Below are positions 17,707 to 28,561 of a DNA stretch of 64,000 bases, piece after piece (position 1 is the first letter of the stretch; every line of letters begins with the position of its first letter). The DNA comes from Sphingopyxis flava (GTDB taxonomy: Bacteria; Pseudomonadota; Alphaproteobacteria; Sphingomonadales; Sphingomonadaceae): the NCBI RefSeq assembly GCF_900168005.1, contig NZ_FUYP01000005.1:124001-188000 (forward strand), read 5' to 3'. A program made the position numbers and the translations under genes. Under the pieces are notes generated by a model. The model ran no database searches. It was not told where the DNA came from and saw only the letters and a list, made by a program, of their open reading frames with translations.

Positions 17707-17716
17707 GTTGGATGCC

Positions 17717-19138
17717 ATGCCTCGTTTCATTTTGACGACAACCGCGCTTTTCGGCCTGCTTGCAGGCTGCACAGCGCCCGACCTTGGCCCGAGGCCGGTA
17801 CCGGCAGCGCCCGAGTCGCTCACATCCGATGCGTCCTTTGCCGATGCAGCGGGCGCGTGGCCAGTGGAGGGCTGGTGGCAAGACTGGGGCGATAGCCAGC
17901 TCGACACGCTGATCGCGGAAGGGCTCGCGGGTTCGCCCGACATCGCAGCAGCCGCCGCGCGCGTTCGCGCCGCCGATGCGCTCGCGCAGCAGGCGGGCGC
18001 TGCGCTCATGCCGCGCCTGGGCGCCGAAGCGAGCGCGGGGGGCACCCAGCAGAGCAAGACGATGGGTATTCCGCCGCAATTTGTCCCTGACGGCATTCAG
18101 GATACGGGTCACGTCGCTGCGACCTTTGCCTTCGATCTCGACCTTTGGGGCCGGAACCGGGCCGCGCTCGCCGCGGCAACCTCCGAGGCTGAGGCGGCGC
18201 GCGTCGATGCGGCGCAGGCACGCCTGATCCTGACGACCGGCGTCGCCGCCGCCTATGCTGACCTTCAAGGACAATATGCAGCGCTCGACGTTGCGCGCGA
18301 GGCGCTGCGCGTGCGCAGTGCAAGCGCGCAGCTGTCCGCCGACCGCGCGCGCGCGGGGCTCGACAATCAGGCAAGCGCCAGCCTGGCCGACAGCCGCGCG
18401 GCTTCGGCGCGCGCCGACATCGCTGCGCTTGAGGAAGCAATCGCGCTGACCCGCAACCGGATCGCCGCGCTCGTTGGTGCCGGACCCGACCGCGGCCGGA
18501 CGATCGCCCGCCCGAAGCTCGCCACCCCATCGGCGGGCTTGCCCGCCGGCGCGGGGATCGAGCTGATCGGGCGGCGTCCCGATATCGCCGCAGCGCGGCT
18601 GCGTGCCGAAGCCGCAGCACAGCGTATCGATGTCGCGCGCGCCGATTTCTACCCGAATATCAGCCTCTCGGCGCTCGTCGGCTTTCAATCGCTCGGACTC
18701 AGCAACCTGTTCGCCGCGGGATCCAAATATGGCAACGGCGGTGCCGCGATCACGCTCCCGGTCTTCGAGGGCGGGCGTATCGAGGGTCGCTATCGCGGCG
18801 CGCGCGCCGACTATGACGCCGCCGTTGCGCGGTATGACGGCACGCTTGTCGCGGCCCTGCGCGAGGTCGCCGACATCGTCGCGAGCCGAGCCGCGACAGC
18901 ACGGCAACTTGACGAACGCCGCGCCGCGCTCGCGGCCGCCGCAACCGCCGCGAAACTCGCCGGACTTCGCTATGGTGCGGGTCTCGACAATCAGCTCGCT
19001 CGGCTGACCGCCGAGGATAGCATGGTTGCGCTGAGTCGCTCGGTCGCCGAGCTCGAAGCGCGCCAGCGGACGCTCGACATCGCCCTCATCCGCGCCCTTG
19101 GCGGCGGATACCGGGCCCCAACCGCAACAGGAGAATGA
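17717..19138 (+). CDS. NodT/TolC-type outer-membrane efflux lipoprotein
   Basis: This is the outer-membrane channel of a tripartite efflux pump. From the ATG at 17717 it has a lipoprotein signal with lipobox LLAGC (cysteine at about residue 18) and two repeated OEP-type helical-barrel domains, with the family features WWQDWGD, GRRPDIAAARLRAEAAAQRI, ADFYPNISLSALVGFQS and a final repeat SRSVAELEARQRTLDIALIR. The 473-residue length fits. A TTG nine bases upstream is a less likely start. It is the first gene of the operon and overlaps the adaptor gene region by a few bases. Confidence 0.93.
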   Translation: MPRFILTTTALFGLLAGCTAPDLGPRPVPAAPESLTSDASFADAAGAWPVEGWWQDWGDSQLDTLIAEGLAGSPDIAAAAARVRAADALAQQAGAALMPRLGAEASAGGTQQSKTMGIPPQFVPDGIQDTGHVAATFAFDLDLWGRNRAALAAATSEAEAARVDAAQARLILTTGVAAAYADLQGQYAALDVAREALRVRSASAQLSADRARAGLDNQASASLADSRAASARADIAALEEAIALTRNRIAALVGAGPDRGRTIARPKLATPSAGLPAGAGIELIGRRPDIAAARLRAEAAAQRIDVARADFYPNISLSALVGFQSLGLSNLFAAGSKYGNGGAAITLPVFEGGRIEGRYRGARADYDAAVARYDGTLVAALREVADIVASRAATARQLDERRAALAAAATAAKLAGLRYGAGLDNQLARLTAEDSMVALSRSVAELEARQRTLDIALIRALGGGYRAPTATGE

Positions 19139-19140
19139 CG

Positions 19141-20307
19141 ATGGCCGACGGCACGGCTACGGCCGCCCCCGCTCCCCTCCCCCAGGTCGGTGAAAATGAC
19201 GAGGCGAAGGAAGCGAGGCTGGCGAAGCGCAGGAAGCTGCTGCGCATCCTTGCCATCGCCGTCGTCACGATCGCGGCGCTGTGGGGTCTGTGGTACTTTC
19301 TGACCCAGGCCGGCCGCGTGTCGACCGACAACGCCTATGTCGGAGCCGACAGTGCGACGGTTACGGCCCTCGTCTCCGGGCCCGTCAAGGAGGTCCGCGT
19401 CAGCGGCACCCAGACGGTGCGCAAGGGCGACATCCTCGTCATTCTCGACGACGCGGATCAGCGCATCGCGCTAGCCGATGCCGAAGCGACGCTGCGCCAA
19501 GCGCGCCAGCGCTACGGTCAAGCCGACGCGACGGCTGACGCTGCGCGTTCGCGGGTCGCAGCGCGCGGCGCAGAAATCGTGCAGGCGCAGGCGCGGCTGC
19601 GCGACGCCGAGGCGACGGTCGAACGTACGCGCGCCGAACTGGCGCGGCGCGAGAGCATCGCGGGGACGGGCGCGGTATCGACCGAAGAGCTGACCGCGGC
19701 GCGTGCGGCACTTAAGCAGGCTCAGGCGGCCCGCGATCTCGCAGCAGCGGGCGTCACCTCGGCGCAGGCGACGCGCGGCTCCGCGGCGGGTGACCTCGGT
19801 GCAGCGGAGGCAGTCGTGCGCGGTACTACGATCGACACCGCCCCGGACGTCGCGGCGGCACAGGCGCGGGTCGAGAAGGCGAAGCTCGACCTTGCGCGGA
19901 CCGTAATCCGCGCGCCGGTGAACGGCATCGTCACGAACAAGCAAGTGCAGGTCGGCCAGCGGATCGCGGCGGGTGCGCCGATCATGGTGATCGTGCCGAT
20001 CGACGCCGCCTATGTCGACGCCAATTACAAGGAAAGCCAGTTCAAGAAGATCCGGATCGGCCAACCGGCCGAACTTACCTCCGACTATTATGGCGGCGAC
20101 GTCGTCTATCACGGCAAGGTCGTGGGCATCGCCGGCGGAACCGGCGCCGCCTTCTCCCTTATCCCGGCCCAGAATGCGACGGGCAACTGGGTGAAGGTGG
20201 TGCAACGGCTGCCGGTGCGCATTGCGCTCGACCCCAAGGAATTGAAGGCGCATCCGCTGCGCGTCGGCCTGTCGATGGAAGCAACCATCGACACGCGCGG
20301 CCGGTAA
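19141..20307 (+). CDS. EmrA-like HlyD-family membrane fusion protein
   Basis: This adaptor connects the inner-membrane permease with the outer-membrane channel. It has a cytoplasmic N-terminus, one membrane segment (about residues 36-58, LLRILAIAVVTIAALWGLWYF), a barrel-sandwich motif (STDNAYVGADSATVTALVSG), a long alpha-hairpin (about residues 100-235), and the returning lipoyl half (IRAPVNGIVTNKQVQVGQRI). The length is about 388 residues. I prefer the ATG at 19141, which has AGGAG seven bases upstream; the ATG at 19135 overlaps the previous stop and has the same AGGAG only one base away. Confidence 0.93.
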   Translation: MADGTATAAPAPLPQVGENDEAKEARLAKRRKLLRILAIAVVTIAALWGLWYFLTQAGRVSTDNAYVGADSATVTALVSGPVKEVRVSGTQTVRKGDILVILDDADQRIALADAEATLRQARQRYGQADATADAARSRVAARGAEIVQAQARLRDAEATVERTRAELARRESIAGTGAVSTEELTAARAALKQAQAARDLAAAGVTSAQATRGSAAGDLGAAEAVVRGTTIDTAPDVAAAQARVEKAKLDLARTVIRAPVNGIVTNKQVQVGQRIAAGAPIMVIVPIDAAYVDANYKESQFKKIRIGQPAELTSDYYGGDVVYHGKVVGIAGGTGAAFSLIPAQNATGNWVKVVQRLPVRIALDPKELKAHPLRVGLSMEATIDTRGR

Positions 20308-20313
20308 CACCCA

Positions 20314-21858
20314 ATGTCCAGCACCGCCGCCCCGACCCTTCCGGCGGAGCCGCAGCCGCTCTCGGGCGTACGGCTGATCGCCGCGGCCGTCGCGCTCGCG
20401 CTCGCCAATTTCGTCGTGGTGCTCGACACGACCATTGCGAATGTGTCGGTGCCTCACATCGCGGGAGGTCTTGCGGTGTCGCCGACGCAGGGAACGTGGG
20501 TTATTACGAGCTATGCCGTCGCCGATGCCATCAGCGTCCCGCTTACCGGCTGGCTCGCCGCGCGCTTTGGCATGGTTCGCTGGTTCCTGATCTCGATCGC
20601 AGGTTTCGGCCTCTTCTCCTTTCTCTGCGGCGTGTCGCGCACGCTCGATGCGCTGATTCTGTTCCGCGTCCTCCAGGGCCTGTCTGGCGGACCGCTGATG
20701 CCGCTATCGCAGATCCTGCTTCTGCGCATCTTTCCCAAGGAAAAGGCCGGTGTCGGCCTTGCAATCTGGGCCATGACCACGACCACAGCGCCTATACTCG
20801 GGCCGATTCTGGGCGGCGTGATCAGCGACAATTGGAGCTGGCCCTGGATCTTCTTCATCAACCTCCCGGTCGTTGCAATCTGCGCCTTTGGCGTAGGCAG
20901 CATGCTCGGCGGGTTCGAGACCAGGCGGGTCAAGGCACGCATCGACACCGTCGGCCTCATCCTCCTCGTCCTCTCGGTTGGCGCCTTTCAGATCATGCTC
21001 GACACCGGGCGTGAGCACGACTGGTTCGATTCAACCTGGATCGTCGGCCTCGCGATCGTCGCCGCGATCAGCTTCATTGCCTTCGTCATCTGGGAACTGA
21101 CCGACGCCAATCCGGTCGTCGATCTGCGCGTCTTCCGCTTCCGCGGCTTCAGCTTCGCGACGATCGCGATATCGCTCGGCTTCGGCGCTTTCTTTGCGCA
21201 GGTCGTGCTGACCCCTTTGTGGCTGCAGCAGGTCGCAGGTTATACGGCGACCGACACCGGCTTCGTCGTCGCCTGGCTCGGGGTATTCGCCGTGCTCTTG
21301 TCACCCGTTGCGGCGGGCTCGATCGGCAAGATCGACATTCGCATCACGATCAGCGCCGGCATATTGTGGATGGCCTTCATCTCGACCCTGCGCGCGGGCT
21401 GGACCGCCGATGTCGATTACTGGACGCTCGCTTGGCCGCACATATTGCAGGGGATTGGAATGCCCTTTTTCTTCGTCGGGCTGACCGCGCTTGCGCTATC
21501 GAGCGTGCCGATGAAGGACCAGACCAGCGCGGCGGGACTGATGAGCTTTCTGCGGACCCTGAGCGGCGCGATCGGCACCGCTATCGCGACGACCGCTTGG
21601 GACGATTCGACCGCCAGCGCGCGTGCGCAGCTCGTCGCGACCATGAACGACGCCGGCGGCGCGATCTACCAGCTCCAGCAGGCGGGGCTGACGCTCGAAC
21701 AGGCACGCGCCGCAGTTACCCGTATCGTCGAGGTCCAGGCCTCGACGCTGGGAGTCCTTCATCTCTTCCTCGCCGCAGGAGCGGTCTTCCTCATTGCCGC
21801 GGCCGCCGTATGGTGTGCGCCGCGTCCCAAGCAGATATCGATGGGCGCTGCACATTAA
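20314..21858 (+). CDS. EmrB/QacA-type MFS multidrug permease (DHA2 family)
   Basis: This inner-membrane drug/proton antiporter has 514 residues and about 14 predicted membrane segments, the DHA2 layout. Family motifs include FVVVLDTTIANVSVPHIAGG at the end of helix 1, the A-loop region LTGWLAARFGMVRW, and motif C in helix 5 (APILGPILGGVISDNWSW). With the EmrA-like and NodT-like genes it forms a complete EmrAB-TolC-type pump. Substrate cannot be told from the sequence. It begins six bases after the adaptor gene. Confidence 0.94.
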   Translation: MSSTAAPTLPAEPQPLSGVRLIAAAVALALANFVVVLDTTIANVSVPHIAGGLAVSPTQGTWVITSYAVADAISVPLTGWLAARFGMVRWFLISIAGFGLFSFLCGVSRTLDALILFRVLQGLSGGPLMPLSQILLLRIFPKEKAGVGLAIWAMTTTTAPILGPILGGVISDNWSWPWIFFINLPVVAICAFGVGSMLGGFETRRVKARIDTVGLILLVLSVGAFQIMLDTGREHDWFDSTWIVGLAIVAAISFIAFVIWELTDANPVVDLRVFRFRGFSFATIAISLGFGAFFAQVVLTPLWLQQVAGYTATDTGFVVAWLGVFAVLLSPVAAGSIGKIDIRITISAGILWMAFISTLRAGWTADVDYWTLAWPHILQGIGMPFFFVGLTALALSSVPMKDQTSAAGLMSFLRTLSGAIGTAIATTAWDDSTASARAQLVATMNDAGGAIYQLQQAGLTLEQARAAVTRIVEVQASTLGVLHLFLAAGAVFLIAAAAVWCAPRPKQISMGAAH

Positions 21859-21895: not shown

Positions 21896-24361
21896 TCAGA
21901 AGTTGAATTTCGCCGTCACGCCGTAGCTCGGGCTGCGGCCCGGGAAGCGTACGGCGGCGTTCGCATTGGTCGCCGCCGACATCCAGTAATAGGTGTCAGT
22001 GATATTCTTGCCCCAGATCGACACGTCCCATTTTCGGTCCTGGCTGTAGAGGCCGAGGCGGGCGTTGAGAATGCCATAGCCCTTGATCTGGAGGGGTTCG
22101 AAATCCTCGATCGTGCTGCCGGTCTTTGACTGGTAGCGGCCGTTGAGGATCGCGCGGATCCCGAGCCTGTCGCCAACCGGCGCGTCATAGGTGATCGTCG
22201 CCGCGCCCGAGAATTTGGGGCTGTAAGGAAAGGCGAAACCGTCGAAGTCGAACGGCTGGCCGGCTGCGTTGATCCCGACATAGCCCTGGATCTCGGTCTT
22301 GAGCCAGGTCGCTGCGACGCTGAGGTTCAGGCTGTCGGTGACATCGATGCTGAGATCGCCGTCGAGGCCATAGGCGCGCGACTTGGGAATATTATCGAGG
22401 CGAAGCAGCGTCGTGTAGATTGGGTCGGCGAAATAGACCGCAAGCTGCTTGTCGCGATAATCATAATAGAAGGCAGCGAGATTGAGGTGCATACGCTGGC
22501 CGGCAAGACCGAGCTTGGTGCCCACTTCATAGGCTGTGAGCTGCTCCTGGCGCGCCGGGCGGTTCTGCGTTGCTATATTGGCCGCGTTGACCGGGGTCGA
22601 GCCCGATTTGTAGCCGCGCGATACCGAGGCATAGAGCATCGCATCGTCCCCTGCATCTCAGGTCAGCGCGCCGCGCCACGCGACATTATCCTCCTTGAGC
22701 GTCGAGGTGACCGCCCCGAAAGTCCCGGTATCGACATCGAAGGTGTTGCATTGGTTCGCGGTGATGGGAGGCGTGAAGACGCCGTAGACCTGGAAGAAGA
22801 AGGCGCGGTTGAACAGGTTGACGTTGGGCAGCATCGAATCGCCAATCGAGCGCGAGCATCCCTCATACTCCTGCCGGTCCTTCGTGTAGCGGATTCCCGT
22901 GGTGAGCTTCAGCGTCTCTGTGAGCTGCCAGTCGGCGCTTGCGAACAGGCTCCACGTCTCGGTGTCGAACGCCGCCTGGTCGCGATAGGTGCGGAAGGAT
23001 TGCGCAACGTCAAGAGCAGTGTAGCCTGGCGAGTTGAACGGTGTGTTCAGAAGGCCGAGCTGGAGGATCAGCGCGCGGATCGCACCGACATTGGCATTCT
23101 GGCCGAGAAGCGTCTGGTTGGTGTCGGTCAGCGTATCGCTGGCGTAATAGCCGCCGATCACCCATTCGGCGGGACCGGTTGCCCCCTGGAAGCGAAGCTC
23201 CTGCGAGATACTCTCGATCCGGCCTTCGGCGTGCTGGATCAGTATCTCGTAGGGAGCGCCGCTCCAGTCATATTTGGCGTTGCGCTTCACGCGGTTGTAG
23301 CCGGTGAGTGAAATGAAACTCAAATCGTCGGCGAGATCGAACTGGATGAGCCCGCGCAACCCGACGAAATCGCTGTCCTCCTTCAAGGGTCCGTCGATGC
23401 CGGGGCCGATGCCGATATCGGCACCCCGCACCGAGCGCGGCGCCCAGTCGGCGCTGTTCGAATCCCAGCGGCCCGCGTTGTCCGCGACATATTGCGGCAG
23501 GCCCGGGGCATTGAAGAGGCTGAAGATCGTGCCGTTAGCGGGATCGGTGTTGGGCGTGAAGCCCACCGCCTGCCCCGCAAGCGTGTCGGACTTGTTGACC
23601 CACACATTCGCCCCAATCTCGATTCTCATGCCGTCGGTGGGTTCGGCGGCGAGCGTCAGCCGCCCGCCGTAGCGATGCACCTCGCCCAGCTTTTCGTCAC
23701 GCGAAATGCTGTGCTGCCACCCCTGCCAACTGTCTTCGGTGCGCCATGCAAAGCGCGCTGCGACTGCGTCGCCGAGCGGTAGATTGAGGAAGACCTCGCT
23801 GTTGAGCGTTTGCTGGCTGCCGCCCTCGACCGTGGCGCCGCCGGAAAATTCGCCGAACTTTGGCTTGGCCGTGATGAAGTTGACGAGTCCGCCGGTGGTG
23901 TTGCGACCGTAGAGCGTGCCCTGCGGTCCTTTGAGCACCTCGACGCGTTCAAGGTCGTAGACAGGACCGCTGTTCATGAACGGATAGGCGAGCGCGACCT
24001 CGTCCTGATAGGTGCCGACCGTCGAGGTCGCCGAAAGGTTGATCGTGTTGAAGCCGATCCCGCGCAGCGTATAAATGGGAATCCCCTGATAGCCGCGCGA
24101 GACGTTGAGGCTGGGCACCACGGCCTGGAGATCCTCGGTCGAGGTTACGCGCAGATTTTCAAGCGTGTCGCCTGAGAAGGCCTGGATTGCGAGGCCGATG
24201 TCGTTGATCGCCTCGGCGCGGCGCTGCGCGGTGACGACGATCACGCCGTCGTCCGCGGTCACAGTCTCGCTTCTTTCCGCATCCTGCGCCCGGGCGGGCA
24301 CCGTCGCAAGCGCTGCAATCCCGATTCCCGCCAACAGAAGCGACCGTCCCGTCATGCTCAT
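21896..24361 (-). pseudogene. TonB-dependent receptor interrupted by one in-frame TGA
   Basis: The frame encodes an outer-membrane TonB-dependent receptor of 821 codons. It starts at the ATG of 24361, with GGGAGGG upstream, and has a signal peptide ending VPARA. The plug domain is clear (VIVVTAQRRAEAINDIGLAI, later GVDL-type block DLERVEVLKGPQGTLYGRNT), and the barrel ends in the expected aromatic residue (KFNF). Codon 568 is TGA (22658-22660) where relatives would be expected to have tryptophan (ALT-stop-DAGDDAMLYASVSRGYKSG); the frame continues intact for 253 more codons. So it is either a recent nonsense pseudogene or a sequence error. It diverges from a TetR gene with double operators between. 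Confidence 0.85.
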
Positions 24362-24380: not shown

Positions 24381-24412
24381 TTATCAGGCGTGATAGTTAT
24401 CATTGCTGATAG
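24381..24412. promoter_or_regulatory. Tandem operators TTATCA-N4-TGATAR between receptor and TetR gene
   Basis: Two 16-bp palindromes stand edge to edge: TTATCAGGCGTGATAG (24381-24396) and TTATCATTGCTGATAG (24397-24412). They fill the gap between the divergent TonB receptor and TetR genes. The same motif recurs at 25110 and 27648. Confidence 0.75.
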
Positions 24413-24474
24413 AGATTGCAACAGCAATTGCATTTTCGGGCAAGGGATGGTCTTTCGGGCCCCAAGGAGCTGAG

Positions 24475-25122
24475 ATGGCAAGCGCAAGCGAGAAAACCGA
24501 AAGCCGGACGCGGGGATCGATCCGCGAAGGCCTGCTCGATGCGGCGAGCGCCCTGATGCGCGAACAGGACAAGATTGATGTCGGCATTGTCGACATCGCG
24601 GCGCGCGCGGGCGTGAATCACGGGATGATCCGCTATTATTTCGGTGACAAGGAAGGGATGCTCGCCGCCCTGCTCGACCGCGATGTTTTGCGGGCGATCC
24701 GTCAGCTCGACGCCCTGTTCCGGCTGAATGTGACCGCGACCGAACGCATGCGCATTCACCTCGAGGGCATCCTCGACACCTATTACCGCATTCCCTACCT
24801 CAATCGGCTGATCCAATATATGGTCCGCGACGCCGAGCCCGATCGCGTGCGGCACATTGGCGACGAACTGCTCAAGAAGATTGCGGGCGCACAGGCAAGG
24901 ATCATCGAGGAAGGCATCGCCGCAGGGGAATTTCGCGACGTCGACCCCAAACTCTTCTACTTCAATACGATCGGCGCGGCCGACGGCCTCTATTCGAACC
25001 GGCTGACGCTGCAGGTGGTGTTCGAGGGCAAGCCCCACGCCGACGATGACTTGCACGCACGCTACCGAAAACACACGGTCGAGACGCTGCTCGCCGGACT
25101 GGTGAAAAATTATCAGACTTGA
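24475..25122 (+). CDS. TetR-family regulator of the acyl-CoA dehydrogenase/oxygenase block
   Basis: The 215-residue protein has a TetR HTH at about residues 18-64 (GLLDAASALMREQDKIDVGI, then AARAGVNHGMIRYYFGDKEG) and a helical C-terminal ligand domain. I start it at the ATG of 24475, preceded by AAGGAG; the longer frame begins inside the operator. Its own gene has double operators in front, and the same palindrome overlaps its stop codon and lies before the neighbouring catabolic genes. It therefore most likely represses itself, the receptor, both acyl-CoA dehydrogenases and the MpaB-type gene. The ligand is unknown. Confidence 0.88.
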   Translation: MASASEKTESRTRGSIREGLLDAASALMREQDKIDVGIVDIAARAGVNHGMIRYYFGDKEGMLAALLDRDVLRAIRQLDALFRLNVTATERMRIHLEGILDTYYRIPYLNRLIQYMVRDAEPDRVRHIGDELLKKIAGAQARIIEEGIAAGEFRDVDPKLFYFNTIGAADGLYSNRLTLQVVFEGKPHADDDLHARYRKHTVETLLAGLVKNYQT

Positions 25123-25125
25123 TAA
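25110..25125. promoter_or_regulatory. TetR operator copy before the first acyl-CoA dehydrogenase
   Basis: TTATCA-GACT-TGATAA is a perfect copy of the palindrome. It overlaps the tetR stop codon (25120-25122) and ends 28 bases before the acyl-CoA dehydrogenase start. Confidence 0.75.
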
Positions 25126-25153
25126 ACTATTTCCATGCCCGCATAGGCGTGGA

Positions 25154-26251
25154 ATGGATCTGGAATTTAAGGAGGAAGAGCGACTGCTGCGCGATTCGCT
25201 CGCGCGCTTCCTGTCGCAGCGGTTCCCCTTCGAGAAGCGGCGACATTTGCGCAGCGCCGAGGCGCAGCTCGCCGCGTGGCGCGAAGTCGATGCAGCCATC
25301 GGCGTCGGCGCCGCACCGCTTCCCGAGCATGTCGGCGGCGTCGGCGGCGGACGCGTCGCCGCGATGATCATCGCCGAGGAGCTGGGCGCCGCACTTGCCG
25401 TCACACCCTTCATCGACTGCCATATCCTGTCGGCGACGCTGCTGCTCGCGCTGGGCGAGGACGCGCGCGTGGGAGCGATCGCGCGCGGCGATGCGCTGGT
25501 GATTACCGCAATCGAAGAGCCGCAAACCCGCGGCGATATTGCCGCAATCCGTGCGCGCGCCACAGCTGCGCCGGGCGGCTGGACACTCACCGGCCAGAAG
25601 ATCGCGGTTCCCTTTGCCGCCGAGGCGAGCGACATCTTGCTTCCCGCACGCGACGAGGGCGGGCAGCTGCGTCTTTTCCAGCTTCCCACAGCGTCGCTGT
25701 GTGGCAAGCTCCACCCCTATCGGACGATCGACGATGCGCCCGCCGCCGACCTGCTGCTCGAGGGCGAGCCGATCGATGCGGCGCGCGAGATCGGACGCGG
25801 GCGCGACGCCGAGGCGGCCCTCCATGCCGCGGTCGAGGCCGCGATTTCTGCGCTGTGCGCCGAGGCAGCGGGGCTCGCGCGGGTTCTTCTCGAGGATACG
25901 CTCTCCTATACCCGCCAGCGCCGACAGTTCGGACAGCCGCTCTCGAGCTTCCAGGCGCTCCAGCACCGCATGGTCGACATGCTGCTGCGGCGCGAGGAGA
26001 TCTCGGCAGCCGCGCTGCTTGCGGCTCTGAAGCCTCACGACGCGCGCGCCAGCGCTGGAGCCAAGGCGACCGTGAATGAAGCGATCCGCAAGATGGCGCA
26101 GGAAGCGGTGCAGCTGCATGGCGCGATGGGGATGACCGAAGAGCTGCGCGTGGGCCATTATTTCAAGCGCGCGACCGCGATCGAACAGCGGCTGGGGACA
26201 AGCGATGCGCATGTCGCACGTTATGCGGCGGCGATGCAGCGCGCAGGCTAA
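25154..26251 (+). CDS. Acyl-CoA dehydrogenase family protein (short partner)
   Basis: This 365-residue FAD enzyme of the acyl-CoA dehydrogenase superfamily would introduce a 2,3 double bond into an acyl-CoA. The N-terminal helical domain opens MDLEFKEEERLLRDSLARFL; the C-terminal domain has YTRQRRQFGQPLSSFQALQH (about residues 253-272) and ends QLHGAMGMTEELRVGHYFKR. The ends resemble the small subunit of pimeloyl-CoA dehydrogenase-type enzymes, which work as heteromers with a second, longer subunit. That partner is probably the convergent gene at 26397-27626. A good ribosome-binding site (AAGGAGG) lies inside its first codons' leader. Confidence 0.88.
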   Translation: MDLEFKEEERLLRDSLARFLSQRFPFEKRRHLRSAEAQLAAWREVDAAIGVGAAPLPEHVGGVGGGRVAAMIIAEELGAALAVTPFIDCHILSATLLLALGEDARVGAIARGDALVITAIEEPQTRGDIAAIRARATAAPGGWTLTGQKIAVPFAAEASDILLPARDEGGQLRLFQLPTASLCGKLHPYRTIDDAPAADLLLEGEPIDAAREIGRGRDAEAALHAAVEAAISALCAEAAGLARVLLEDTLSYTRQRRQFGQPLSSFQALQHRMVDMLLRREEISAAALLAALKPHDARASAGAKATVNEAIRKMAQEAVQLHGAMGMTEELRVGHYFKRATAIEQRLGTSDAHVARYAAAMQRAG

Positions 26252-26396
26252 TGCCCTCGGGGAGTGGGCGCAGCGGGCAAGCCAGGATGGAGGGCTGGGC
26301 GCGATGGCGCCGCCCAGGCGAGGCGGTGATCTCGCCGCTTCTCCGCAACGCGAGAGCAAGCTCCCGGCCCTCACAGCCCCGCCTAAGGCGATGGCT

Positions 26397-27626
26397 TCAG
26401 AGACCCAGCACCGCCTTGGCCAGAATATTGCGCTGTATTTCATTCGATCCGGCGTAGATCGATCCCGCGCGCTCGTTGAAGTAGCGCAGCGGAGCAATGG
26501 CCTGCCAGGGTTCGCCGGTCAGATGGCTGTCGGCGGGCGGGACATGCGAGGGAACAGCGGCGCCCGGATGCCCTGCATGCGGCTGAAAGGCCGTACCCGC
26601 GGGACCCGCAGCCTCATAGTCGAGCTCGGTGATATGCTGCGCAAGTTCGGTCGCCATGATCTTCAGCAGCGACGCCATGACCCCGACGCTCGCCCCCTGC
26701 CCTGCCGAGGACAGGAGGCGCAGCTCGATCATTTCCAATATGTCGACGCGGATGCGCGCGCGCGCGATCTTATGTGCAAAGACGGGATCGTCGCCCAGCA
26801 TAGCGTTGTTCGCTGGGGTTTCGGCGGCGCGGCACGCGAGAGCATCGACTCGCATCGCGAGCGCCGGGGCGTGCGCGGACCCGCCTCGCTCGAACTCGAG
26901 CAGATATTTGGCGACGGTCCAGCCCCGATCCACCGCGCCGATCACATTGGCCTTCGATGACCGCGCATTATCGAAGAAGATCTCGGTCTGGATCGTTTCG
27001 CCTGAGATCATCGTCAGGGGGCGAACCGTCACCCCCGGCTGATCCATGGGAACGAGCAGAAAGGTGATCCCCTGTTGGGGCCGATCGCCCTTCGAGGTCC
27101 GGACGAGGCAGAAAATCCAGTTGGCCTCGCTCGCGTGCGTGGTCCAGATTTTCGATCCGTTGAGCACGAAATCGTCACCATCGGCAACCGCGCTCATCTG
27201 AAGTGCCGCGAGATCGGACCCCGCGCCCGGTTCTGAATAACCCTGACAGAAGAAGACCTCGCCCGACAGGATACGCGGCAGGAACCAGGCTTTCTGCTCC
27301 TCGGTTCCGAAGGCCGCGATGACATGGGCGACCATGTGAATCCCCATCGGCGAGAGCGGAGGTGCACCGGAGCGCGCGCGCTCGCGCGCCCATAGGTAGA
27401 ATTGGGCCGCACTCCAGTCGCGCCCGCCGTGCTCGGGCTGCCAGTGCGGCGCGGCAAGACCCTGCGCATGGAGCTTCGACTGCCAGGCCATCGACACGCC
27501 ATGATCAGCGTAGACGCTGGTCATACCCGCCGCGCCGGCACGGAGGTCCGCCGTCAGTTCGCGCTCGAGCAGCGCTCGCATCTCGCGCGCGAATTCGGCT
27601 TCGGCATCGCTCCATTCGAGGTTCAT
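26397..27626 (-). CDS. Acyl-CoA dehydrogenase family protein (long partner)
   Basis: This 409-residue acyl-CoA dehydrogenase starts MNLEWSDAEAEFAREMRALL and has the FAD/substrate blocks CQGYSEPGAGSDLAALQMSA and DDFVLNGSKIWTTHASEANW. Near the C-terminus it reads YAGSNEIQRNILAKAVLGL, where single-chain short-chain enzymes carry the catalytic glutamate (YEG); here it is alanine. That fits the two-subunit class seen in steroid and dicarboxylate oxidation. The start could also be the ATG at 27629 or 27647. It converges with its likely partner at 25154 and has its own copy of the TetR operator. Confidence 0.88.
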   Translation of the reverse strand: MNLEWSDAEAEFAREMRALLERELTADLRAGAAGMTSVYADHGVSMAWQSKLHAQGLAAPHWQPEHGGRDWSAAQFYLWARERARSGAPPLSPMGIHMVAHVIAAFGTEEQKAWFLPRILSGEVFFCQGYSEPGAGSDLAALQMSAVADGDDFVLNGSKIWTTHASEANWIFCLVRTSKGDRPQQGITFLLVPMDQPGVTVRPLTMISGETIQTEIFFDNARSSKANVIGAVDRGWTVAKYLLEFERGGSAHAPALAMRVDALACRAAETPANNAMLGDDPVFAHKIARARIRVDILEMIELRLLSSAGQGASVGVMASLLKIMATELAQHITELDYEAAGPAGTAFQPHAGHPGAAVPSHVPPADSHLTGEPWQAIAPLRYFNERAGSIYAGSNEIQRNILAKAVLGL

Positions 27627-27647
27627 CATTCCACCCGTTGCCATCAA

Positions 27648-27663
27648 TTATCACATCTGATAA
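27648..27663. promoter_or_regulatory. TetR operator copy between the long dehydrogenase and the MpaB-type gene
   Basis: TTATCA-CATC-TGATAA is a perfect copy in the control region shared by two divergent genes. One site here could control both. Confidence 0.75.
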
Positions 27664-27703: not shown

Positions 27704-28561
27704 ATGAAGCCGATTCTCCGTCGTCCCGCCGCAATGGCGATCGATTTTACCAGCCCCGAGGGAGAACCCGCGCTTGTCGCGCCCGATTCGGTGCAGTGGA
27801 GGGTATTCAAAAATCCCGTCGCGCTCGCCATCGGCGGGGTTGCGGCAGTGCTGCTCGAATTTGCCGACGCCCGCATCCGGTCGGGGGTCTGGGATCATTC
27901 GACTTACAAGGCCGACCCGATCGGCCGCTCGCAGCGCACGGGCATGGCGGCGATGGCCGGCGTCTATGCACCCGCCAGCGCGGCGCGGCGGGTGATCGGG
28001 GGCGTGGGGCGCATGCACGCCAAGGTGTCGGGAACCACGCCGGGAGGCGAGACCTATTCGGCGCTCGACACCGAGTTGCTCAATTGGGTCTATGCAACCG
28101 CGCAATATGGCTTTCTCAATGCCTATCATCGCTTCGTGGCGCCGCTCTCGGCCGCCGACCAGGCGCGCTTCTGGCGCGAGGGCGAACCCGTCGCGCTACT
28201 CTATGGCGTGACCCGAACACCAAGGTCAGAGGCCGACTTTCTGGAAATGATGGAAGAATTGCTGCCGCGTTTCGAGCCGCACCCGATCGTCACCGAATTT
28301 CTCGACATCATCGGGTCGGGCCGCGCCGCGCCCTCGGTGCCGTCTTTTCTGCACAAGTCGCTCGCGCGCGCTGCAGTCTCGCTATTGCCTCCCGCAGTGC
28401 GCGCGCGGCTCGAACTCGGCCCGCGCTACGATCTTGGCCGGCGCGACCGACTGATGGTCGGCGCGATGGCAAAGCTTGCCGATCGCATCAAGGATCGCGG
28501 ATCCCCGGCGTGGCAGGCAGCCGAGCGGCTCGGCCTTCCCGGCGACACCGCCTGGCGATGA
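27704..28561 (+). CDS. MpaB/rubber-oxygenase family protein (DUF2236)
   Basis: The 285-residue protein belongs to the DUF2236 family, which includes the heme oxygenase MpaB and latex-clearing proteins. Visible family blocks are VALAIGGVAAVLLEFADARI (about residues 39-58), HSTYKADPIGRSQRTGMAAM and LLNWVYATAQYGFLNAYHRF, with the histidines and arginines typical of the heme pocket. Biochemical roles in the family are oxidative cleavage of isoprenoid chains, but most members are uncharacterised. Its place beside acyl-CoA dehydrogenases and the shared operator suggest a step in breakdown of a hydrophobic compound; that is inference. Confidence 0.82.
   Translation: MKPILRRPAAMAIDFTSPEGEPALVAPDSVQWRVFKNPVALAIGGVAAVLLEFADARIRSGVWDHSTYKADPIGRSQRTGMAAMAGVYAPASAARRVIGGVGRMHAKVSGTTPGGETYSALDTELLNWVYATAQYGFLNAYHRFVAPLSAADQARFWREGEPVALLYGVTRTPRSEADFLEMMEELLPRFEPHPIVTEFLDIIGSGRAAPSVPSFLHKSLARAAVSLLPPAVRARLELGPRYDLGRRDRLMVGAMAKLADRIKDRGSPAWQAAERLGLPGDTAWR

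Follow-up and report, generated by a model that had tools for sequence, protein, structure and literature searches.

FadR of Bacillus, PsrA and KstR belong to the TetR family and control the catabolism of fatty acids or cholesterol, and a TetR autorepressor set over a block of uptake and CoA-dependent oxidation genes is a known kind of system. Judged by gene content, a near analogue of the locus considered here is the bsd I cluster of the sphingomonad Caenibius tardaugens, which acts on the bile-salt side chain and which, according to the available part of its description, shares with it a TetR regulator, a two-subunit dehydrogenase (Scd4AB), a monooxygenase, a CoA ligase and palindromes by the TetR gene proposed as operators, and the edge of which has a gene related to transporters that may encode a TonB receptor (PMC12882949). 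The present analysis deals with a stretch of 64,000 nucleotides of Sphingopyxis flava (NZ_FUYP01000005.1; the window), in which four sites of the palindrome TTATCA-N4-TGATAA accompany a block made of a TonB-dependent receptor, a TetR-family regulator, two acyl-CoA dehydrogenase proteins (ACAD1 and ACAD2) and an MpaB/Lcp-type oxygenase (Lcp, latex-clearing protein). From sequence comparisons, it is most likely that these sites serve the adjacent TetR as operators.

The locus also differs from what has been described. The bsd I palindromes, ATAGGGCCATTG and GCATGCGGGATGC, are not those of the window, and the term MpaB does not occur in the available text on that cluster, whereas the window contains an MpaB-type gene (PMC12882949). 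The window TetR shares the family of FadR, PsrA and KstR, and a fold match with FadR, but its scores are far below the curated NCBIfam cut-offs (FadR, 37.8 versus 200 bits; PsrA, 28.2 versus 300 bits; KstR, 20.8 versus 280 bits), which place it outside the FadR, PsrA, KstR and BetI equivalogs. The nearest solved structure is that of Saro_1072 of Novosphingobium aromaticivorans (2qtq, 2rha; about 40% identity), which differs in its recognition helix, NSALVKYYF, the helix of those homologues that have no operator nearby. Among the matches listed in open-access titles and abstract starts there was no description of the block or of the operator; regulator, sites and gene set seem undescribed so far. 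The features are as follows.

21896..24361, minus strand: TonB-dependent receptor gene, with Plug and barrel Pfam matches on two parts
24381..24396: operator 1, TTATCAGGCGTGATAG, one mismatch (ends TGATAG), in the divergent receptor/TetR region
24397..24412: operator 2, TTATCATTGCTGATAG, one mismatch (ends TGATAG), abutting operator 1 in tandem
24475..25122, plus strand: TetR-family regulator, 215 residues, with TetR_N and TetR_C_9 domain matches
25110..25125: operator 3, TTATCAGACTTGATAA, exact, ahead of ACAD1
25154..26251, plus strand: ACAD1, acyl-CoA dehydrogenase, probable non-catalytic partner subunit
26397..27626, minus strand: ACAD2, acyl-CoA dehydrogenase, probable catalytic subunit
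27648..27663: operator 4, TTATCACATCTGATAA, exact, between the divergent ACAD2 and MpaB-type genes
27704..28561, plus strand: MpaB/Lcp-family oxygenase (PF09995)

The palindromes and the adjacent TetR regulator

A search of the window that allowed up to two mismatches returned these four sites and no fifth, to be compared with a mean of 0.24 and a maximum of two matches in dinucleotide shuffles (n = 100). An earlier note on this DNA had described the sites as occupying all three control regions of the block, with a tandem pair before regulator and receptor and no further copy noticed in the window, and the observation as a whole was confirmed: the sites lie in the divergent receptor/TetR region, ahead of ACAD1 and in the divergent ACAD2/MpaB region. 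Its wording of four copies of the same palindrome holds for the exact sites at 25110 and 27648, and has to be relaxed for those at 24381 and 24397, each with one mismatch. The TGA of operator 3 forms the stop codon of the TetR gene (25120-25122), an overlap that, judged from position, is also present in loci L084-L088.

In the genome assembly of S. flava as a whole (4.16 Mb, 119 contigs), searched with the reversed pattern as a control, sites with at most one mismatch are found at six places (control, two), four of them in the window and one of the extra ones marking an unlinked acyl-CoA ligase; at up to two mismatches the places are 34 versus 16, so that two-mismatch sites are unreliable. The genus was surveyed through 80 genomes, 16 of which contain a TetR match at 1e-40 and 10 an orthologue (89-100% identity; the carriers). 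Exact sites, two or three in each genome, were found in 10/10 carriers, all 24 of them at the block, versus 1/70 genomes lacking the orthologue (G370, where the site falls within a 500-codon open frame), with a Fisher p value of 6.7e-12 that ignores relatedness. It is because exact sites track the TetR orthologue in this way that they are most likely its operators. In the family set (298 genomes) an exact site is present in 28 genomes, including five of the six with a TetR orthologue of at least 60% identity; genome G101 (locus L104), which has a TetR fragment and no site, was left out of the corresponding Fisher test. The 23 genomes with an exact site and no such TetR are what chance across many genomes would give. 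In G370 and G223 the exact sites fall within open frames (500 and 512 codons, respectively) that contain the motif IITDDNPR and that we take to be murE-like.

The block was then compared in 21 named loci from Sphingopyxis, Tsuneonella, Qipengyuania, Altererythrobacter, Erythrobacter, Novosphingobium, Sphingorhabdus and others (one genome contributes two copies, L092 and L103; L084-L089, L100, L101 and L104 duplicate genomes of the G series), and all three control regions were found to keep their sites. With up to one mismatch, a site is present ahead of ACAD1 in 17/17 loci in which ACAD1 follows TetR, and upstream of TetR in 16/21 (as a tandem pair in 10), while the divergent ACAD2 and MpaB-type genes are separated by an exact site in all 16 loci that have the pair, a count that leaves out L104, with its pieces in a different order. 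The block of genome G111 is split, ACAD2 and the MpaB-type gene lying away from the TetR locus with two sites, and both halves keep sites. At L101 (Pseudopontixanthobacter) a site lies between TetR and a different receptor gene, and no ACAD1, ACAD2 or MpaB homologue of more than 40% identity was found at the TetR locus. Across 71 sites from 22 block loci, selected at up to one mismatch (two of them, in L097 and L102, fall outside the block), the core is near-invariant except for its last base and the N4 spacer varies freely. An origin of the sites as chance matches, to which the abundance of two-mismatch sites in the genome might point, has a negligible probability: it is already contradicted by the shuffles, by the scarcity of closer matches in the whole genome and by the retention of the same positions in 16 to 17 named loci. 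In four Novosphingobium loci (L093, L097, L098 and L102) a second, shorter and imperfect palindrome (TTATCA...GATA) can be seen by eye next to the receptor-side operator.

The regulator combines the TetR_N helix-turn-helix with a TetR-type ligand domain, as expected of the family. The best fold matches are the Saro_1072 structures (2qtq and 2rha), and the weaker ones include the acyl-CoA-binding FadR with stearoyl-CoA. The presence of a palindromic operator both at its own promoter and at its putative targets is borne out by conservation and co-occurrence. Homologues of less than 45% identity (38 rows from 31 distinct loci) lack any site with one mismatch or none within 500 bp, and their recognition helix is mostly NSALVKYYF versus NHxMIRYxF in the carriers.

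Putative targets beyond the block and the module without this TetR

The earlier note spoke of a local regulon, which proved too narrow: judged from the distribution of sites, the predicted regulon is not purely local, since a variant site is also found at an unlinked acyl-CoA ligase gene and, in relatives, at a second TonB receptor gene. In S. flava itself the site TTATCAAAACTGAGAA (C64:137596) lies 28 bases ahead of an AMP-binding acyl-CoA ligase gene that is unlinked to the block. The variant TTATCA-N4-TGAGAA precedes the ligase gene in 9/9 evaluable carriers (G366, whose contig begins inside the gene, is left out) versus 1/14 non-carriers tested (G304), with a p value of 1.2e-5 in which relatedness is ignored; the ligase match is present in all 27 genomes queried. 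DNA upstream of the ligase gene is matched in the S. flava genome, in carriers G320, G331, G353 and G329 and in all 14 non-carriers, indicating the same ligase neighbourhood in those carriers and in the non-carriers; carriers G321, G325, G330 and G335 share another one. The second TonB receptor gene has the variant site in 7/7 carriers that possess it versus 0/3 such non-carriers, and in S. flava the search for it gave just a 51% paralogue with no site. The TGAGAA end is found in 16/16 ligase and second-receptor sites of the genus carriers versus 0/71 block sites. The off-block sites shared between genomes were drawn from among the matches listed, and others may exist. Two further candidates, a site like TTATCGCCGGTGATAA close to a NUDIX-like gene in five carriers (L172-L176) and TGATCAAGCCTGATAA in two genomes, were kept out of the regulon.

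A paralogous version of the module without this TetR is also found. Homologues of the MpaB-type protein (at 1e-50) are present in 43 of the 80 genus genomes, namely in the 10 carriers (79-100% identity) and in 33 non-carriers (60-65%), and the two versions never coexist (0/80; chance probability of 0.003 if they were independent). The MpaB-type gene follows a receptor homologue in 9/10 sampled non-carrier loci, and homologues of ACAD1 and ACAD2 adjoin the receptor and MpaB-type genes in L237, L238, L241 and L242, the four loci mapped of six. None of the six contains an operator at up to one mismatch, with two sites appearing at two mismatches. In L238, the one locus tested for its regulator, the receptor gene and a LuxR-family gene diverge from each other; an amidohydrolase gene lies beyond the MpaB-type gene of this locus, on the opposite strand. 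The recurrence of the module without this TetR suggests that the receptor, ACAD1, ACAD2 and the MpaB-type protein form a functional unit whichever the regulator.

The enzymes and the receptor

The 'two acyl-CoA dehydrogenases' of the earlier note are both present as genes. However, their products are probably two subunits of one enzyme, because each of them matches a different chain of heteromeric dehydrogenases. The best Protein Data Bank (PDB) matches of ACAD2 are 4x28_A and 6wy9_A/6wy8_B (Tcur3483), and those of ACAD1 include 6wy8_A, the Tcur3481 partner chain, in second place and 4x28_D lower down, so that at the sequence level two unlike subunits, with just short stretches in common, correspond to the two chains of alpha2beta2 acyl-CoA dehydrogenases that act on steroid side chains. 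We take 4x28 to be ChsE4-ChsE5 (FadE26-FadE27), and the Tcur3481-Tcur3483 pair (6wy8) presumably acts on steroids. The window pair departs from these systems in that the best match of ACAD1 is an ordinary dehydrogenase (3nf4_A) and in the convergent orientation of the two genes. HMMER aligns Glu246 of ACAD2, in the sequence ERGG, to a Glu followed by Arg in 4x28_A, and no Glu is seen by eye at the usual C-terminal position of ACAD1. Since in such heteromeric dehydrogenases the alpha subunit carries the catalytic Glu, according to the available part of the source (PMC11153573), Glu246 fits a catalytic alpha role for ACAD2. The curated NCBIfam scores exclude membership of the PimC/PimD families (pimC_large, 278 versus 623.85 bits; pimD_small, 195 versus 652.7 bits).

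The MpaB-type protein belongs to PF09995 (162.4 bits versus a gathering cut-off of 23), and its structural model (mean pLDDT, 85.4) appears to resemble t-anethole oxygenase (8s1j, Z = 14.9) and latex-clearing protein (5o1l, Z = 13.3; 5o1m, Z = 13.0), the next row having a Z of 7.7, although with this fold aligner Z values up to about 13 are common for helical bundles and thus close to the 13 to 15 obtained here. Identity to these proteins over the structural alignment is 10-11%. The PDB sequence search gave two matches, both at chance level, and Foldseek returned no match of the model at E < 0.001; the fold aligner alone set t-anethole oxygenase and Lcp apart from the remaining entries. Arg75, Thr79 and His105 are invariant in 16 MpaB-type sequences, including that of the window; the conserved residues of Lcp are, in the available part of its description, Arg164, Thr168 and His198, so that the Arg-Thr spacing is 4 in both proteins and the Thr-His spacing 26 versus 30. 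With such fold matches, the label 'heme-oxygenase-like' of the earlier note does not fit.

In the Tsuneonella, Qipengyuania, Altererythrobacter, Erythrobacter and Sphingorhabdus loci another acyl-CoA ligase gene adjoins the receptor gene; a relative of it was not found in the S. flava genome at 1e-20, a negative that proves little. By eye, Novosphingobium L093 has a Baeyer-Villiger oxygenase-like gene in its place. On the far side of the receptor gene, positions 17708-21858 of the window contain genes resembling an outer-membrane efflux factor, an HlyD-type adaptor and an EmrB-type pump, the last of which was also seen in just L084 among the compared loci.

Mode of control and significance

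A TTG(T/C)CA hexamer is found 17 nt from the ligase operator in 9/9 evaluable carriers and in G304, and 15 nt outside the ACAD2 operator, on the ACAD2 strand, TTGACC is present in 12/18 loci, the window included; it is missing in the other six, among which are Tsuneonella and four Novosphingobium loci. A promoter scan gave one match versus 0.8 expected, and is no evidence by itself. With hexamer spacings of 17 and 15 nt the operators would cover the −10 region, which favours promoter occlusion by TetR as the likely mechanism. Some TetR-family members activate transcription, and the TGAGAA end of the sites outside the block suggests that sites are of unequal strength; the possibility that this TetR is an activator, or represses just its own gene with the other sites being weak, is nevertheless unlikely in view of the hexamer geometry at the ligase and ACAD2 operators.

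With good confidence, then, TetR may be regarded as an autorepressor of the block and of the ligase gene that acts through the palindrome and would be released by an acyl-CoA. Without inducer, a TetR dimer would sit on the four local operators and repress its own gene and those of the TonB receptor, the two-subunit dehydrogenase and the MpaB/Lcp-type oxygenase, and would also bind a fifth, variant operator (TTATCA-N4-TGAGAA) before the unlinked acyl-CoA ligase gene. A hydrophobic, probably bulky, carboxylic acid would enter through the receptor and be converted to its CoA ester by the ligase; the ester, or a product of it, would release TetR, and the molecule would be shortened or cleaved by dehydrogenase and oxygenase. 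Sequence comparison shows the positions of the sites, their conservation, their co-occurrence with this TetR and the remote sites at the ligase and second-receptor genes; that control is by repression, that an acyl-CoA is the inducer, the substrate class and the order of the enzymes are what we infer. The earlier proposal of one system tying together uptake, CoA-ester oxidation and an oxygenase is thus retained, as the sites track TetR and join these genes, with the correction that the system is wider than the block.

Several observations weigh against this scheme. A Pacificimonas TetR (62% identity, helix NHAMVKYHF), with the receptor present, has no site, and the TetR of L091 (74%), with the carrier recognition helix, has just a two-mismatch site. 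The 14 non-carriers in which the ligase site was looked for are a chosen part of the 70, and the carriers belong mostly to two ligase clades, so that the counts are not independent and the p values are uncorrected for relatedness. Of the three carriers not belonging to the genus, G111 lacks the ligase site, and G264 and G078 have differing one-mismatch variants, that of G264 being 114 bases upstream of a 48% ligase homologue. The one-mismatch site at C51:3948-3963 of the S. flava genome (G000, L005) fits no proposed target; by eye, the genes near it appear to encode a radical SAM protein and a protein of the HlyD type. The receptor gene of the window is broken by an in-frame TGA at 22658-22660 (minus strand), a position that is open in 8/8 relatives checked, including G320 (TetR 98% identical), and the break may reflect either a pseudogene or a sequencing error (the receptor copy of L099 has a break at another place). 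Acyl-CoA as the inducer is plausible, on the grounds of fold likeness and gene content. Finally, G304 (L139) has the site at the ligase gene, preceded at 17 nt by the same hexamer, and no TetR match at 1e-12 in a profile search. Our guess is that this site is a relic left after loss of the block, but it would also suit a palindrome bound by another regulator serving the catabolic genes. Such an alternative is very improbable, given that the site tracks the presence of TetR in the genus (10/10 versus 1/70), remains by TetR at L101, where the catabolic genes were not found, and is lacking at up to one mismatch both in the TetR-less module and near homologues with other recognition helices. Binding and autorepression by the adjacent TetR remain the preferred explanation.

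A broader joint reading may be advanced only tentatively, and we rather doubt that all of its parts will hold together: the block would belong to an undescribed sphingomonad route for C=C cleavage of a hydrophobic acid that is bulky and resembles a terpenoid or steroid, existing in two mutually exclusive versions, one with TetR and this operator and the other with a LuxR-type regulator and without it, and the TetR version would grade its response through two classes of operator, the symmetric one of the block and the one with the TGAGAA end outside it.

Through the analysis an uncharacterized uptake-and-degradation module of sphingomonads gains a likely regulator, an operator that can be searched for and putative target genes away from the block, and the presence in the regulon of the CoA ligase and, in relatives, of a second receptor narrows the search for the substrate. 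A test case for the replacement of one regulator by another is available in the module that lacks this TetR, the one such locus tested having a LuxR-type regulator, and TetR with its operators could act as a sensor to identify the compound.

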